Of a DNA stretch of 64,000 bases, positions 421-17,339 are shown piece by piece. Below the pieces are notes generated by a model that was given only the letters and a program-made list of their open reading frames with translations, made no database searches and was not told the DNA's origin. The DNA is from Desulfurellales bacterium (GTDB lineage Bacteria > Campylobacterota_A > Desulfurellia > Desulfurellales > Hippeaceae): contig JALVUQ010000063.1 in the NCBI GenBank assembly GCA_027035575.1, positions 1 through 64,000 of the forward strand, written 5' to 3'. The position numbers were made by a program, and so were the translations under genes. The number at the start of each line of letters is the position of its first letter. The first letter of the stretch is position 1.

Positions 421-2361
421 TTAGTTTTGTTTTTTTAGGCGGTTTTGCATCTTTTTCATTTCTTTGAAAAGGTTTTCTGAGTCTTTTTTTGAGGGCAGGA
501 AATCAACAACGGGTTTGCCTGTTTTTAGAGAGGCATATCTGACGTTAATATAGTGCAAAAGATTCCACACATACGGAGGATTTGGGTTCATTGCTATTGC
601 CCTTTCTGCACATACTTTTGCATCTTTTAAATCGTCGTTAAACAGATATGCTAATCCTAGATAGTATTCGCTCAACCAGATTTTGTGGAGTGCTTCCAGC
701 CTTTTTGCCTCTTGCAGAATGTCTATCTTTAATTTGTTAGCCTCTTTCTGCTCTTTTTTTGTCATTTTTTTATTTTTGATATCTTCTTTTAACAGAGGAA
801 TGTGGTTTATTCCCGTTGTAATTTTCAAATAATAAGGAACGGCTTTATAGATAAAACGAGATGATGCTATCCAAAAAAGATAATCATCCTGCGAGGCTTT
901 GTATAGTAAATCCAATTTTTTGTCTATTTGTTTTGTTTTCTGTATTTTAAACGTATAATAAACATCATTTTTCATATGCGGAAACAGATAAATTGTCGAT
1001 AAGGCATAAATTATGAACAGTATTATAACTAAAACATTTTTTAAATGACCTTTAAGCATAAAAAATCTGCTTTTATCCGCCATTGCCAGAATAACAAAAA
1101 ACAGGGCAAGCAGGGCAGGATGACGCAGCGGCCAGGATAAGCCGGCTTGAAATATAAAGACTAAAATGAGGGATGGAATTAGCAGATTTTTTATATTTTT
1201 TTCATCTTTTAACACTTTAATATAGTAAAAAGCAGTTATAAAAACTATACTTAAAAAGGCAAAAATACCAAGCTCCTCCAGTATTTGAACGGGTTCATTA
1301 TGAGCAAATATGAAATTGCTAATTATATCTGAAGGAAATTTTAATATTTTACAGGATATTATTTGATAGGGATTATTCAAAAATTTGAATGTTTCAAGGC
1401 CTGTTCCGAAAAACGGATGTTTTGACCAGAGCAGTATTGCTGCAAGCCAAATCATAAAACGTTTATCCACAGAAGCATCAGCAATCAAACCCTGATGGGC
1501 AAATTTGGCAAAAGGTGAATACCTGCTGAAGAAAAATACGGCTATGTATATAACAAACAGTGTAATCAGCGTAAATTTTTCTTTTTTTGACATATTAAGG
1601 CTAAAGAAACGTTTATGTATAAAAATAAAAAAGAAGACAAATAGAACAGCGAGCAGACCGGCTCTCGATGATGCAAGAGCAACAGCGTAGGCAAAGAAAG
1701 TATATACTATAAACAGTTGAATTGAGATTCTCTTTTCTGTCTGTCTTAATATCAAAAAGGCCGTTATTACTAATCCTATGTTTATCAAGAGTGAGTTAAG
1801 ATTTGGCTGATACAGAAATCCACCGATTGAAGCAATGTTTGATATATATAAAAAATAAGGAATCAATACAACCGTTTTTGAATGGCCAAAGGACTTAAAA
1901 ATATATTCTAAATAACTAAACAGCGCACCTGCAAAAGATATTAAAAAAATACCTTCAATAAAATACGATGCTTTCTGAAACTTCTCACCGTATATCAAAT
2001 ACAGATTTGCAAAAAAGTCGTTCTGTTTTAGCTTAACGTTCACTGTTTTTAAATTTTCAGCAGTAATAAATAAAATATACAGTAAGAATAGAAAATAGAG
2101 AAAGAACATCCCGTCAGGCCTGTAATACCCAAAAAAAGTGGCAAAATAGGTATAAAATAAAAATATAGCAATAAACACAGAAAATCGAGAAATGCTTATC
2201 ACTTTTAGTTTAAACAAGTAAGCAAAAAAGACAGGCATAAAAATGATAAAAAGAAAAATTTTAATGCTGTGATGGAAAAACTCAAGAGAAGATATATTTA
2301 AAACAAAAGCTGCAAATAATAATAAAATTAAACAAACATAAACTTTACTCTTTTTTTGCAT
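421..2361 (-). CDS. O-antigen ligase/polymerase (Wzy_C) family membrane protein with C-terminal TPR-like region
   Basis: This 646-residue polytopic membrane protein has about a dozen hydrophobic segments in residues 8-455, followed by a soluble C-terminal part. Two hallmarks of the Wzy_C family are visible: SSRAG at 231-235 just before a membrane segment, and the loop motif AHNEPVQ near residue 353, followed by EELG. Proteins of this family transfer lipid-linked glycans in the periplasm: O-antigen ligase WaaL, polymerase Wzy, or the pilin oligosaccharyltransferases PglL and TfpO. The C-terminal region (about 555-605) looks like a TPR hairpin with AERAIAMNPNPP. A type IV pilin gene lies about 1.4 kb upstream on the same strand, so pilin O-glycosylation is possible but only inferred. 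The ATG start has a weak GGAA ribosome site. Confidence 0.8.
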   Translation of the reverse strand: MQKKSKVYVCLILLLFAAFVLNISSLEFFHHSIKIFLFIIFMPVFFAYLFKLKVISISRFSVFIAIFLFYTYFATFFGYYRPDGMFFLYFLFLLYILFITAENLKTVNVKLKQNDFFANLYLIYGEKFQKASYFIEGIFLISFAGALFSYLEYIFKSFGHSKTVVLIPYFLYISNIASIGGFLYQPNLNSLLINIGLVITAFLILRQTEKRISIQLFIVYTFFAYAVALASSRAGLLAVLFVFFFIFIHKRFFSLNMSKKEKFTLITLFVIYIAVFFFSRYSPFAKFAHQGLIADASVDKRFMIWLAAILLWSKHPFFGTGLETFKFLNNPYQIISCKILKFPSDIISNFIFAHNEPVQILEELGIFAFLSIVFITAFYYIKVLKDEKNIKNLLIPSLILVFIFQAGLSWPLRHPALLALFFVILAMADKSRFFMLKGHLKNVLVIILFIIYALSTIYLFPHMKNDVYYTFKIQKTKQIDKKLDLLYKASQDDYLFWIASSRFIYKAVPYYLKITTGINHIPLLKEDIKNKKMTKKEQKEANKLKIDILQEAKRLEALHKIWLSEYYLGLAYLFNDDLKDAKVCAERAIAMNPNPPYVWNLLHYINVRYASLKTGKPVVDFLPSKKDSENLFKEMKKMQNRLKKQN

Positions 2362-2415: not shown

Positions 2416-2796
2416 TCATAAAAAATCCGAAGAAAGAAAGAGTGCGTAATGCCGAGATACTTTTATCAGGCTTTCATATCCATATTGCCCACAAAATATA
2501 CCTGGCGTGAAAAAATGAGTTAAATAAAGTTTAATGCAGATAATTATATTTGCAGGATGGTGAAACGATTTGTTTATCAGCCATAAAAACCTGTCAATTC
2601 CGTATGCGAGAACACAATAAGAGCTACAATATACTCTAAGGCGACAAAAAAGGTGATACTCTAAGTTTTTTATAGCATTACAATTTAAAAGCCTGTTAAA
2701 CATTTTATAATCGTCAATGAAATTTGTATGATAAAATAAACCCAAAGAAACGAAAATTAAGAATAAGACTTGATATTTAATATCTAAATTTATCAT
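2416..2796 (-). CDS. Doubtful 126-residue ORF, unrecognised
   Basis: I do not recognise this ORF. It begins with a hydrophobic stretch (residues 8-22) and is rich in Cys, Tyr and Phe later on, with no motif I know. It starts 9 bases after the preceding gene on the same strand but has no visible ribosome site. It may be a real small membrane protein, a decayed fragment, or not a gene. Confidence 0.3.
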   Translation of the reverse strand: MINLDIKYQVLFLIFVSLGLFYHTNFIDDYKMFNRLLNCNAIKNLEYHLFCRLRVYCSSYCVLAYGIDRFLWLINKSFHHPANIIICIKLYLTHFFTPGIFCGQYGYESLIKVSRHYALFLSSDFL

Positions 2797-2805
2797 AGAT
2801 TGTTT

Positions 2806-3366
2806 TTAAATTGACTTTTTTAATTCACAACAAGATATTTCTTTTCGATTGCAGTTAAAGAGATTTAATTCCCAATAAGCTATGGGAACATTCTTTATCT
2901 TATTCTTTATTGCTTCAATAACATATTCATACTTACTTATAGTGTCAATCTTTGTCCATACAAAATTCCTTAAACCAACAGCTTTCAAAACCGTTGAATC
3001 TATAGGGCAGTGCGGTGGCATTGCAATCTCACCCATACACCACAAATACTTCAAATATAGATTCAAAAGCTTTTGAACAGTACCTATGTTCAGTCTGCTG
3101 TTTAAAATAATACCTTTACCACAAAAACGGGAGCAGTTTTGAAGCTCTTCCAAGTTAGCGATATGCTGCTTTTCGCTAACATATCTGCAATATTGAGGAA
3201 TGATAAAACATTCTATATACTCTTTTATGCATTCTTTGAATTTAATACGTTGTGTATCAGAAATATCGGGAGAATAAACCTTGTTATGCTGGAATGCCCC
3301 TGTGACTGCCAACATCCAAAGTTCATCTCTTAAAAATGTTGTTTTGAATTTTGAAGGACCACACAC
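2806..3366 (-). CDS. Conserved-looking hypothetical protein, 186 residues
   Basis: The function is not recognised. The ATG start is preceded by AAGGA at a sensible distance. The protein is soluble, with no signal peptide or membrane segment, and has many Cys residues. The central part (about residues 95-130) contains KLLNLYLKYLW followed by PPHCPID, a pattern that looks like a conserved core rather than random sequence. It lies directly downstream of the terminator that ends the pilin unit, so it needs read-through or its own promoter, and I see no clear one. The Cys-rich composition differs from its neighbours and may mean accessory origin. Confidence 0.55.
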   Translation of the reverse strand: MCGPSKFKTTFLRDELWMLAVTGAFQHNKVYSPDISDTQRIKFKECIKEYIECFIIPQYCRYVSEKQHIANLEELQNCSRFCGKGIILNSRLNIGTVQKLLNLYLKYLWCMGEIAMPPHCPIDSTVLKAVGLRNFVWTKIDTISKYEYVIEAIKNKIKNVPIAYWELNLFNCNRKEISCCELKKSI

Positions 3367-3383: not shown

Positions 3384-3411
3384 AAAAAAGAGCCGAGAAC
3401 GGCTCTTTTTT
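3384..3411 (-). terminator. Rho-independent terminator of the pilin unit
   Basis: The 12-bp arms at 3384-3395 and 3400-3411 enclose a 4-base loop. On the minus strand the GC-rich core is followed by six Ts. The upstream arm overlaps the stop codon of the small secreted protein gene, so the two-gene pilin transcript should end here. Confidence 0.85.
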
Positions 3412-3742
3412 AGTAAGTACTCCAACTTGAAAAGTCTGTTGAATTTCCGTTGGTACAACCTCCGGCCTGAGTCACTCCTGTTTGGTAATATATCACAGAT
3501 GAGTCACTTGCCACACCATAAGCCTTACCCGTGCCTTTGGAATTATATGTGGAAGCCGAATAAGTATCTCCGGTGGGTGAGTTATAGTTGGCTTGTACAT
3601 TTGATGAAAGGGTAACGGTAACAGTATTAGTAGCACCTAAAGTTATTGACCCGCCGGAACTACTTTGAACAGCAGCAAAAGAAACCCCGTTAAATAATGC
3701 CATTACTGAAACAGCCATTAAGAACATAAATATTTTTTTCAT
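3410..3742 (-). CDS. Small secreted protein downstream of the pilin, possible pilin partner
   Basis: This 110-residue protein starts with a clear signal peptide (residues 1-23, ending SFA) and is then Ser/Thr/Gly/Asn-rich with many tyrosines. Motifs include SSNVQANY near 47-54 and KAYGVASDSSVIYY near 73-86, with a single Cys (C97) in the mature part. It has a strong GAGGAGG ribosome site and sits 28 bases after the pilin gene, inside the same terminator-bounded unit. In Geobacter a short pilin lacking the globular head (PilA-N) is followed by a separate gene for the globular partner (PilA-C). Size, secretion and position here fit that role, but homology is not shown. Confidence 0.65.
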   Translation of the reverse strand: MKKIFMFLMAVSVMALFNGVSFAAVQSSSGGSITLGATNTVTVTLSSNVQANYNSPTGDTYSASTYNSKGTGKAYGVASDSSVIYYQTGVTQAGGCTNGNSTDFSSWSTY

Positions 3743-3770: not shown

Positions 3771-3998
3771 TTAGTTCGGATACTTCATATTATCTGCATA
3801 ATATGCCTCTGCTGTCGTTTGAATGGTCTTTAAATCACTCAACGCAGCAGAATCTTGTGCACTTTTCCTATACTTCGCATACTGCGGTATTGCGATAGCT
3901 GCCAATATTGCAATAATTGCAACAACCACAAGCAGCTCAATGAGTGTGAAGCCCTTTCTGTCTGACTTCAATGTTTTGCCAATTTTTTGAATCACCAT
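3771..3998 (-). CDS. pilA: Short type IV pilin (PilA-N type)
   Basis: This 75-residue prepilin has leader residues 1-16 ending KG. Cleavage before F17 gives a 59-residue mature pilin starting FTLIELL with Glu at +5, the class III signal read by PilD. Only the hydrophobic N-terminal helix and a short tail are present; the beta-sheet head of ordinary pilins is absent. Aromatic residues lie at mature positions 1, 24, 27, 50, 51 and 57. Geobacter sulfurreducens PilA, from memory, has aromatics at 1, 24, 27, 32, 51 and 57. The ribosome site AAAGGAGG is ideal. Transcription is likely from the sigma-54 promoter at 4161-4176. The assembly genes pilMNOPQ are about 8.5 kb away, and other pilus motors are not in the window. 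Confidence 0.92.
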
Positions 3999-4160
3999 AA
4001 AAAACCTCCTTTAAAATTGGTTGAGTGGTTAAACAAGTTGAATAGTTAAATAGTTTAGTGGTTGAGTAGTTAAGTAAATCCAATACACCTTCGCACCTTT
4101 TTACTTTACGCTAAATCAAAGCCAACATCACCTCCTTTTTTAATTAGTCAATCTATGTAG

Positions 4161-4176
4161 AGCAATTTCAGTGCCA
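4161..4176 (-). promoter_or_regulatory. Sigma-54 (-24/-12) promoter for pilA
   Basis: On the minus strand this reads TGGCAC (4171-4176), 5 bases, TTGCT (4161-4165), an exact fit to the RpoN consensus TGGCAC-N5-TTGCW. Transcription should start near 4150, giving a leader of about 150 bases before the pilin ATG at 3998. RpoN control of pilA through the PilS/PilR two-component system is established in Pseudomonas and Geobacter. The regulators are not in this window. Confidence 0.85.
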
Positions 4177-4326
4177 ATGTTGTTATAACAAGGTTTTTAT
4201 GAAAAACATCTTTTTCAAACATACGAATAAAACACTGTAGGAAATTCCCTGAATTCTCTGACATTTCTCAAATGCACCATTTAAACGGCAAAATACTACC
4301 ATAACAGCAGTAAAAAATCAAGTTCT

Positions 4327-4366
4327 TTGACTATCATTTTTTGTCAATATTGACATTTTTTGTCAA
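4327..4366 (-). promoter_or_regulatory. TTGAC/GTCAA half-site array, candidate enhancer for pilA
   Basis: Four half-sites alternate in orientation: TTGAC at 4327-4331, GTCAA at 4343-4347, TTGAC at 4350-4354 and GTCAA at 4362-4366. The middle pair forms a perfect 14-bp palindrome. The array is about 180-215 bases upstream of the predicted pilA start site, the usual place for an enhancer-binding protein. In Pseudomonas, PilR binds several TGTC-containing sites upstream of pilA. Assignment to PilR here is inference. Confidence 0.5.
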
Positions 4367-4399: not shown

Positions 4400-6067
4400 T
4401 TATTCCATATTCAGATAAAAATTACCTAAACGTGTTTTAAAAAATTCCAAAGCCCTCTCTCTAAACTCCTTATTATAGCGATACATACCTTCATCAAACA
4501 CCAAACTCTTTAAAACAGCCGGAGTTTTTTTAAGAATATTTTTATAATCGTTTTTATCAAATCTTAAAAAACCGACCTCAATCGAATGCAGATTTTTAAT
4601 TTTATTAATTTCTGTCAACAGCTCATCATAGTCGTTCAATCTCTCAACAAAAACAGGGTCGAGCCTAACACCTATTTTATAACCGGTACTATCAAGCAGT
4701 TCAATCGCCTCCATCCTTTTTTTCAAACTCGGCGTCAGGTGTTCATATCTGTCTATAATCGGCTGTGGATTCAAAGAGAAAGCAACTATTATATTTCTGC
4801 AAGGCTCCGTTTCGAGTAGGAAATTTATATTATCCGATTTTGTTCTAAGCTCCAAAAAAATATCCTCATCTGCAAACTCTCTGAAAAAATCAATAAGTTT
4901 TTCATTAAAATTGGAAAAACCCGCCATTGCCAAGGAGTCTGAAAACGTACCGGAATAAAAATACAACGGTCTTGTTTTATCCTCCTGCACTGTCTTTTTT
5001 ATGGCAGAAAAGTAGTCTTCGTAATTCAAAAAAATCACGGGGTTAAAACTTCTGAAGTATCCCTTTAAAAAACAGTAAGAACAGTCGTATATGCAGTTAT
5101 AGGCATTCAAAATTGAATAGCCGTATGAGCCAGAGGGTGTATAATTACTTGGTGTTTTTCTTAAAAATTCCCCTTTTTTGTTTGCAAAGACAATACCGTT
5201 TTTATCTTTTAAGTTATGAAAACAGGCAACGTAATCGTCAATCTCTACAACCTTTTTTGCACTTAAATTCAAATTTATTCTATTTTTCTCAACACCTTTT
5301 TCGATAAAGACGCTAAATCCTGCTTTTTCTTCATTCTCCTTTTTTGAGTTTATCAAAATTTTTGAATACAACTTCTGCCTGTTTGTGAATGTTAATCTTT
5401 TTGTTTTAATCAACCGCTTTAAACCGTTTAAAATTTTAATGTTCGAAATGCCCGTATGCTTAAATATTTCAAGCATAGTTTCGTCTTTTTCTATCCAAGC
5501 AAGTCTTTCGATAACATTCTGCACCAAACGAACATTATATACAAAGCCGTTTGTTCTAACCGATTCAATCGAATTTCTTTCGTTTACATCGCTTGCAGCT
5601 CTTAATACAATCCCGAACTTTCCGATGCTTTTGACTGCTTTTGCAAAAAAATAGCTCTCTTTATCAACGCTGTCGGCAAAAAGACTTAAAAACGAATTAT
5701 CCGTTTCATATTCGTCTAATAAACTTACGCCCTCAAAACTCGGCAGTTCGTTAATGTTCGGCAAATCAACAGGGTTAAAAACGGGCTTTTTGTTGTGTAT
5801 CAGCTTTACCCTTTTAAGCGTAAATATATCGCCAATATTAAGTTTATCCGTAAGCGTTCCCGAAAACCCGAACAAAACGGCTATGTTTATATCTTCGTTT
5901 TTAGATAGAATATCAACAATATTATATCCCAAACTCAGTCCGCCGCCACCATAATTAACAAACACGGAAATGTTGTCGTATTTAAACAGCTTACTACTTT
6001 TTTTAAACGGGTATAATTTCAGAAGTGGTTCAATCTCCGCTTTGTGTTCGCTTGCAATCAGCAGCAT
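4400..6067 (-). CDS. Fusion of an MTAN/futalosine-hydrolase-like nucleosidase and a spore-photoproduct-lyase-like radical SAM domain
   Basis: The protein is 555 residues from the ATG at 6067. Residues 1-180 look like a nucleoside phosphorylase/nucleosidase: start MLLIASEHKAEI, glycine loop NYGGGGLSLGY, GFSGTL, and IGDI. All three catalytic acids of MTA/SAH nucleosidase appear kept: E11, E137 (in DKES) and D160 (in RAASD). Residues about 275-555 resemble spore photoproduct lyase: C325-x3-C329-x2-C332 for the SAM-binding 4Fe-4S cluster, then SGTFSDSLA, LRTKSDN and SLNP. An earlier TTG at 6103 also opens the frame, but the ATG matches the family N-terminus. The gene overlaps lolA by 38 bases at the end of the pyrimidine operon. 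Substrates are unknown; removal of 5'-deoxyadenosine or repair of a nucleoside-like lesion are guesses. Confidence 0.8.
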   Translation of the reverse strand: MLLIASEHKAEIEPLLKLYPFKKSSKLFKYDNISVFVNYGGGGLSLGYNIVDILSKNEDINIAVLFGFSGTLTDKLNIGDIFTLKRVKLIHNKKPVFNPVDLPNINELPSFEGVSLLDEYETDNSFLSLFADSVDKESYFFAKAVKSIGKFGIVLRAASDVNERNSIESVRTNGFVYNVRLVQNVIERLAWIEKDETMLEIFKHTGISNIKILNGLKRLIKTKRLTFTNRQKLYSKILINSKKENEEKAGFSVFIEKGVEKNRINLNLSAKKVVEIDDYVACFHNLKDKNGIVFANKKGEFLRKTPSNYTPSGSYGYSILNAYNCIYDCSYCFLKGYFRSFNPVIFLNYEDYFSAIKKTVQEDKTRPLYFYSGTFSDSLAMAGFSNFNEKLIDFFREFADEDIFLELRTKSDNINFLLETEPCRNIIVAFSLNPQPIIDRYEHLTPSLKKRMEAIELLDSTGYKIGVRLDPVFVERLNDYDELLTEINKIKNLHSIEVGFLRFDKNDYKNILKKTPAVLKSLVFDEGMYRYNKEFRERALEFFKTRLGNFYLNME

Positions 6068-6566
6068 AGAATTCGTATATGGTTCTGTTTGAATATATGT
6101 CAACTATAATCAACTTTTCGATTTGTCCGTCTTTAAAATAGGTATATACTTTGTTTATATTGCTCTTGTATTTTGGAGTAAGCTCGTATCCGCTTTGCAT
6201 TTTCTTTATATCAAAAAGGCTGTTTATATCCTCTTTGCCCAAAAACAGCAAAAACAAAACTTTATTAAACCCGGTCAGCTTATAGGTGTATTTTTTGGAA
6301 TCACGATAATCAACCGCTTCAAAGTCGTTTATTATCACTCTCTCATTCTTATAATCAAAAATCATACTCTTTTTTGCCTTAATGGTGAGAATTCCCGTTC
6401 TTTCAATTTTTTGCCCGCTCATTGCATTTATTGAGGTCTGTTTGAAGTCCAAAACGGTGGTCTTGTTTGAATATAATTTAAAAAAATGAGTTATCCGGTT
6501 TGCGGCATAAGAGTCAAGCGTTATGAGCAATACCGACAATATCACCAACACTCTTAATATTTTCAC
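6030..6566 (-). CDS. lolA: Periplasmic outer-membrane lipoprotein carrier LolA-like protein
   Basis: The protein is 178 residues with a signal peptide (1-21, ending SYA). The mature part has the LolA pattern: an early strand with FKQTSINAMSGQ, then GILTIKAKKSMIFDY, matching the 'G.l.i.rP..frw.y' beta-strand pair of LolA. LolA carries lipoproteins across the periplasm from LolCDE to LolB. The gene overlaps the end of pyrD by 53 bases and the downstream fusion gene by 38, so it is translated from the same operon mRNA. The assignment rests on strand pattern and secretion, so a LolA-like relative is also possible. Confidence 0.7.
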   Translation of the reverse strand: MKILRVLVILSVLLITLDSYAANRITHFFKLYSNKTTVLDFKQTSINAMSGQKIERTGILTIKAKKSMIFDYKNERVIINDFEAVDYRDSKKYTYKLTGFNKVLFLLFLGKEDINSLFDIKKMQSGYELTPKYKSNINKVYTYFKDGQIEKLIIVDIYSNRTIYEFYAADCKRTQSGD

Positions 6567-17310: not shown

Positions 17311-17339
17311 ATAATAAACTGCTTTTACACTGTTGTCAA
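17311..17339 (-). promoter_or_regulatory. Sigma-70-type promoter of pilMNOPQ
   Basis: On the minus strand, TTGACA (17334-17339), a 17-base spacer and TATTAT (17311-17316) form a near-consensus promoter with the start expected near 17304, about 30 bases before pilM. The assembly operon therefore appears to be expressed constitutively, unlike the sigma-54 pilin promoter. Confidence 0.8.

Follow-up and report, generated by a model that had tools for sequence, protein, structure and literature searches.

Transcription of pilA, the short type IV pilin gene of a hydrothermal-vent bacterium of the Desulfurellales (an order of Campylobacterota), is probably carried out by sigma-54 polymerase and switched on by a PilS-PilR pair through an array of half-sites upstream of the promoter. 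The mechanism put forward for pilA control in the initial annotation is, in this respect, probably right. The analysis covered a window of 64,000 nucleotides (C63:1-64000), the 1.72 Mb genome to which it belongs (108 contigs, 96% complete) and a comparison set of 25 genomes of the class, composed of the window's own genome (G000) and G001-G024, which are related to it at levels from genus to class. The features discussed are collected in Table 1. A limited literature search, judged by title and abstract, found no paper on pili and sigma-54 in Desulfurella or Hippea, and a limited search likewise found nothing in print on this array.

Table 1. Features discussed in the text, in window coordinates
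Feature	Position	Strand	Basis or remark
Sigma-54 promoter TGGCACTGAAATTGCT (TGGCAC-N5-TTGCT; -24 GG, -12 GC)	4176..4161	- (pilA strand)	consensus match
Four half-sites, putative upstream activating sequence for PilR: GACAAAAAATGTC-N6-GACAAAAAATG, then distal GTCAA	4327..4366	-	
Extra Shine-Dalgarno-like element AAAAGGAGGTGATG, very strong, close to the expected mRNA 5' end	4126..4139	-	no open frame into pilA
pilA own Shine-Dalgarno TTTTAAAGGAGGTT	4003..4016	-	
pilA, short type IV pilin, 75 aa, N_methyl motif	3771..3998 (ATG at 3998)	-	
110-aa protein, signal-peptide-like start (by eye), next gene in pilA unit	3410..3742	-	no Pfam match
Intrinsic-terminator-like hairpin after the 110-aa gene	3384..3411	-	terminator scan
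O-antigen-ligase-like membrane protein (Wzy_C)	421..2361	-	downstream of pilA also in G013 and G009
Codirectional gene upstream of pilA, spore-photoproduct-lyase-like domain	4400..6103	-	
Sigma-70-type promoter TTGACA-17-TATTAT before pilM	17339..17311	-	11/12 consensus positions
pilM, 347 aa	16235-17278	-	

The perfect TGGCAC-N5-TTGCT promoter claimed for pilA was found as an exact match, intergenic and codirectional with the gene, 163 bases before its start. Within the window, the pattern TGGCACN5TTGCW matched only there, with 0.05 matches expected and a match present in 4 out of 100 shuffles, and the whole 1.72 Mb genome carries just two perfect sites, the pilA one included. A looser pattern (TGGCAN6TTGCW) gave 10 genome sites, three of them intergenic, which precede pilA, a pseB-like gene and an ispH-like gene (names assigned by eye). 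Among these three, only pilA has a GACAN5TGTC element at most 400 bp upstream. With +1 set some 12 nt beyond the -12 GC, transcription would start near position 4150 and leave a 5' leader of about 150 nt. The plain sigma-70-type promoter that had been assigned to pilMNOPQ was also present, upstream of pilM.

The four alternating TTGAC/GTCAA half-sites described earlier were recovered exactly (in plus-strand reading, TTGAC at 4327-4331 and 4350-4354 and GTCAA at 4343-4347 and 4362-4366), which puts them some 177-216 bases ahead of the predicted start (first given as 180-215 bases). Four such half-sites within 46 bp formed a single group in the window and were seen in 0 out of 60 Markov shuffles. 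The array does contain a perfect 14-bp palindrome (TGTCAATATTGACA, 4342-4355), as had been noted, although a palindrome of this length is not rare as such because six perfect ones, the array's included, occur in the window. Its TTGACAN5TGTCAA (4350-4366), on the other hand, is the sole perfect copy in the 1.72 Mb genome. We also considered the TTGACA half-sites as sigma-70 -35 elements and rejected them: inspection by eye showed no fitting -10 at a spacing of 16-18 bp, nor does the promoter scan list one. The array most likely serves as the binding platform for a regulator of the PilS-PilR type.

A genome search for rpoN and for pilR/pilS, suggested as a check on the mechanism, returned rpoN at C20 (PF04552, E 3.2e-45) and a PilS/PilR-like pair on C70. 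The sigma-54 activator domain gave four matches in the genome, one weak and three in full-length proteins. The first (C33) is NifA-like, has a GAF domain and is encoded beside a glnA-like gene. The second is FlgR-like (C75; L035, G000:C75:20882-21991) and carries no DNA-binding domain, as is the case for the FlgR of Campylobacterota. The third, on C70, shows the NtrC-type receiver-AAA-HTH_8 architecture (PF00072, PF00158, PF02954). It and the NifA-like protein are the only DNA-binding sigma-54 activators detected in the genome. Directly upstream of the C70 regulator lies the gene of a membrane-type HisKA-HATPase kinase with a hydrophobic N-terminus, and the two resemble PilS-PilR, for which they are our candidate. 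Among the best 25 NCBIfam matches listed for the C70 regulator there was no PilR model; AtoC, NtrC and others appeared below their cut-offs. A hydropathy cut-off gave the kinase four membrane segments in G000 and five in each of G003 and G004. The pair sits off the pilA contig, after a sucD-like gene, and this sucD-kinase-regulator order was found in G000, G003 and G004, while the kinase-regulator pair alone was also found in G002. In the mechanism that we favour, the membrane kinase PilS would respond to a signal and phosphorylate PilR, which would bind the GACA/TGTC array as oligomers; the intervening DNA of about 150 bp would then loop, as is general for sigma-54 systems, and the PilR ATPase would open the complex formed by RNA polymerase and sigma-54 at TGGCAC-N5-TTGCT, from which pilA would be transcribed.

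Relatives of the two proteins are confined to a minority of the class. Regulator relatives with at least 60% identity were found in 6 out of 25 genomes (G000, G002, G003 and G004, with fragments in G005 and G019), and kinase relatives including the membrane part also in six (G000-G004, with a fragment in G007), so that one or both occur in 8 of the 25. Neither was found in any of the nine g5, three f2 and three f4 genomes, and no PilR ortholog was found in G013, whose assembly is 85% complete. We then compared promoter types, taking the best sigma-54-like site in the 410 bp upstream of the pilin as the score and deriving p from shuffles. This comparison took in 15 of the 25 genomes, with one of three close pilin copies scored in G024; it left out G013 (contig end at the promoter), G023 (pilin fragment), the seven genomes for which no close pilin with upstream sequence was available (G001, G002, G004, G005, G007, G017 and G021) and G010, which was scored apart. 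The PilR-bearing genomes scored 14.0 (G000, p 0.000), 12.0 (G003, p 0.006) and 12.5 (G019, p 0.007), the G003 promoter being off consensus at -12 (TTGAT). In contrast, all 12 genomes without PilR scored at most 10.0 (p at least 0.15), and G010, a thirteenth genome without PilR, scored 9.0 (p 0.507). A sigma-54-like pilA promoter thus accompanied PilR in 3 out of 3 genomes vs 0 out of 12 without it, a split with a chance of 1 in 455 if the genomes were independent, against which stands their shared ancestry. For several of the genomes without PilR, the pilins compared are only about 50-60% alike. The remaining pilins of G000-G004, G007 and G019 were scored for sigma-54 sites in a separate run. 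In G007 and G004, strong matches upstream of a pilin-like gene were discarded because by eye they fall within the frame of the gene before; a third pilin-linked match (G007, score 12.0) was discarded as well, lying by eye within the preceding pilin gene. As a separate observation, the g3 genomes G004 (L060) and G007 (L169) keep PilS, and G004 also PilR, without a close short pilA having been found. Since the G004 assembly is 99% complete and no close short pilA was found in it, its PilS-PilR pair must have another target, a point that counts against the favoured mechanism.

The array was likewise compared across relatives, and here the outcome was mixed. In G003, which belongs to another genus, the module GACAATTTTTGTC-N8-GACA starts 86 bp before the promoter match, its window counterpart being GACAAAAAATGTC-N6-GACA. 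The pattern GACAN5TGTCN3-12GACA has 10 matches in the 25 genomes, and the sole one of G000 and one of the two of G003 precede pilA. Shuffles put the chance of the module at 1 in 20,000 or less per pilA region, in G000 and in G003 alike, figures that flatter the pattern because it was fixed after G003 had been seen. The second G003 match lies within a stretch rich in similar repeats, and for one match in G002 and one in G005 no pilin appeared in the flanking sequence printed. In G019, with its PilR fragment and sigma-54-like promoter, no GACAN5TGTC was found upstream of pilA, and in G013 the contig end cuts the region at the promoter. The presumed recognition helix reads ITFRSLRYK in G000, ITFRSIRYK in G003 (one L/I change) and, with greater divergence, ISLRSLRYK in G019. 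Altogether, sigma-54/PilR-type control of pilA was largely supported by rpoN, the kinase-regulator pair, the co-occurrence of promoter type with PilR and the recurrence of the array in G003, though not in G019.

The lack of an array in G019 would also fit a scheme in which the sigma-54 promoter is real, the array serves a regulator other than PilR, be it a repressor or another activator, and PilR uses weaker sites nearer the promoter. The array is somewhat far from the promoter, which counts against binding by PilR, and it lies further out than the G003 module. Against this scheme, the same module precedes pilA in G003, and the only other DNA-binding sigma-54 activator found is NifA-like; the NifA site TGT-N10-ACA is by eye not in the array. 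Sites of the FleQ/FlrA type (GTC...TGAC) resemble the array in their inverted TGAC half-sites and are bound by a sigma-54 activator; unlike in those systems, none of the three full-length activators here was identified as FleQ. The array is not identical to the Pseudomonas PilR sites either, which had been offered as a parallel on account of their TGTC: the sites given in PMC6058289 consist of TGT-N11-AGA with nearby GTCT elements, as compared with GACA-N5-TGTC here, so that only the TGTC core is common to both. Weighing these points, we consider a separate array-binding protein unlikely.

That pilA is mainly served by an overlapping or other sigma-70 promoter, the sigma-54 match being a relic or a product of chance, appears very unlikely. 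A weak sigma-70-like TTGGCA-16-TAGATT (9/12 positions) does overlap the sigma-54 site, and strong sigma-70-like promoters (p at most 0.005) precede the pilin in 5 of the 12 genomes without PilR. The overlapping site is, however, at chance level (p 0.68; four such sites in the region vs 3.4 expected), in contrast to the perfect sigma-54 site, and in G013, whose contig starts inside the pilA promoter, AAATTGCT is kept, with TTGCT unchanged amid neighbouring bases that differ. The array as a transcription terminator of the upstream gene, from whose stop it is 34 bases away and for which TTGACA/TGTCAA could self-pair, is the least probable explanation and was rejected, given that the scan shows no terminator-like site there, that an A-rich sequence and not a T run follows the repeat on the transcribed strand, and that in G003 the module before pilA has a different upstream sequence.

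The gene order pilin, small secreted protein and ligase is also kept in G013 and G009. The 110-aa protein after the short pilin diverges fast (about 40% identity), and its placement resembles what is seen in Geobacter for a split pilin or a chaperone partner. Two ORFs without Pfam match lie between it and the ligase (2416-3366, minus strand) and are absent there in G013 and G009. No pilin was found near a spore-photoproduct-lyase-like gene in the loci of 6 named relatives (MAGs, Desulfurellales or Desulfurellaceae). A search with the pilA upstream DNA gave G013 as the sole real relative among 40, the three other matches being of 31-36 bases and at threshold; the same-genus G001 and G002 gave none because no close pilA exists in their assemblies. 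The G013 pilin is 92% identical to that of the window. Its ligase is 80% like that of G000 vs 70% like that of its own genus-mate G009, and its FlgR shows the opposite pattern (64.5% vs 75%). Given this conflict, the pilA-ligase contig of G013 (L151, C30) was either transferred between lineages or misbinned.

The pilA leader holds a further feature. About 11 nt after the predicted start, AAAAGGAGGTGATG forms a near-complete anti-Shine-Dalgarno match of -19.2 kcal/mol vs -12.9 for the gene's own site. Sixteen loci were scored for this element in one run (10 of family f1, one f3, three f4 and two f2) and G010 was added. All 11 family-f1 leaders examined carry a site of -16.9 to -19.2 kcal/mol, at a distance of 83-142 nt before the pilin segment that was matched, with shuffle p at most 0.01 for each; it was not found in the six loci of the other three families, and none of the 54 window ORFs of at least 150 aa has one as strong at that position. 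In most f1 leaders the element (GG[A/G]GGTGA-like) outscores the site of the pilin itself, and it is present with sigma-54 or sigma-70 promoters (window and L003/L151, L152, L004, L005, L009, L021, L023, L026, L027 and L028). In 4 out of 10 loci (G003, G015, G014 and G011; L152 407-1003, L005, L023 and L026) there is an in-frame start downstream of it, use of which would lengthen the prepilin by a long N-terminal extension and make two forms possible; two PilA forms have been reported for Geobacter. In the window, the frame after the element closes within a few codons. The leader RNA is less folded than its shuffles (z 1.68) and therefore contains no structured riboswitch-like element. A STAB-SD-like role is possible: the STAB-SD of Bacillus thuringiensis cry3A, a 5' mRNA stabiliser of a kind described in Gram-positive bacteria, is likewise Shine-Dalgarno-like, near the mRNA 5' end and over 100 nt ahead of the start codon, and need not start translation (PMC4113751). 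Unlike it, the present element stands in a Gram-negative pilin leader and is known from sequence alone. We tentatively envisage two layers of control, a combination that we hold to be possible and no more than that: a PilSR/sigma-54 switch, retained by some genera and replaced by sigma-70 where PilSR was lost, and a conserved 5' ribosome-docking element surviving the swap, either as a STAB-SD-like stabiliser or as an alternative start for a long prepilin.

Control of pilA by PilSR and RpoN is already known from Geobacter and Pseudomonas (PMC2725144, PMC6058289). In Geobacter sulfurreducens, as here, an RpoN promoter precedes pilA, found by PromScan and, in an earlier study, by 5'-RACE; the RpoN consensus is given as TTGGCACGGTTTTTGCT, and PilR is described as a sigma-54 activator regulating pilA (PMC2725144). 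Geobacter pilA lies directly downstream of pilR (PMC2725144), in contrast to the pilS-pilR pair described here, which is on another contig, after a sucD-like gene in three genera. In Pseudomonas aeruginosa, a membrane kinase and an NtrC-type regulator act with sigma-54 at pilA, and PilS is described with six membrane segments (PMC6058289), as compared with the 4-5 that hydropathy gave here. New here are the lineage (Desulfurellales), the sequence of the array and the association of promoter type with loss of the regulator. These results probably extend PilSR/sigma-54 control of the major pilin to Desulfurellales (Campylobacterota). The Shine-Dalgarno element at the 5' end, kept through the promoter swap, is a separate and easily tested lead on high pilin output. 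The distribution of promoters suggests that, inside one class, control of the pilin has passed between sigma-54 and sigma-70 as PilSR was gained or lost, which constitutes a small natural experiment on rewiring.
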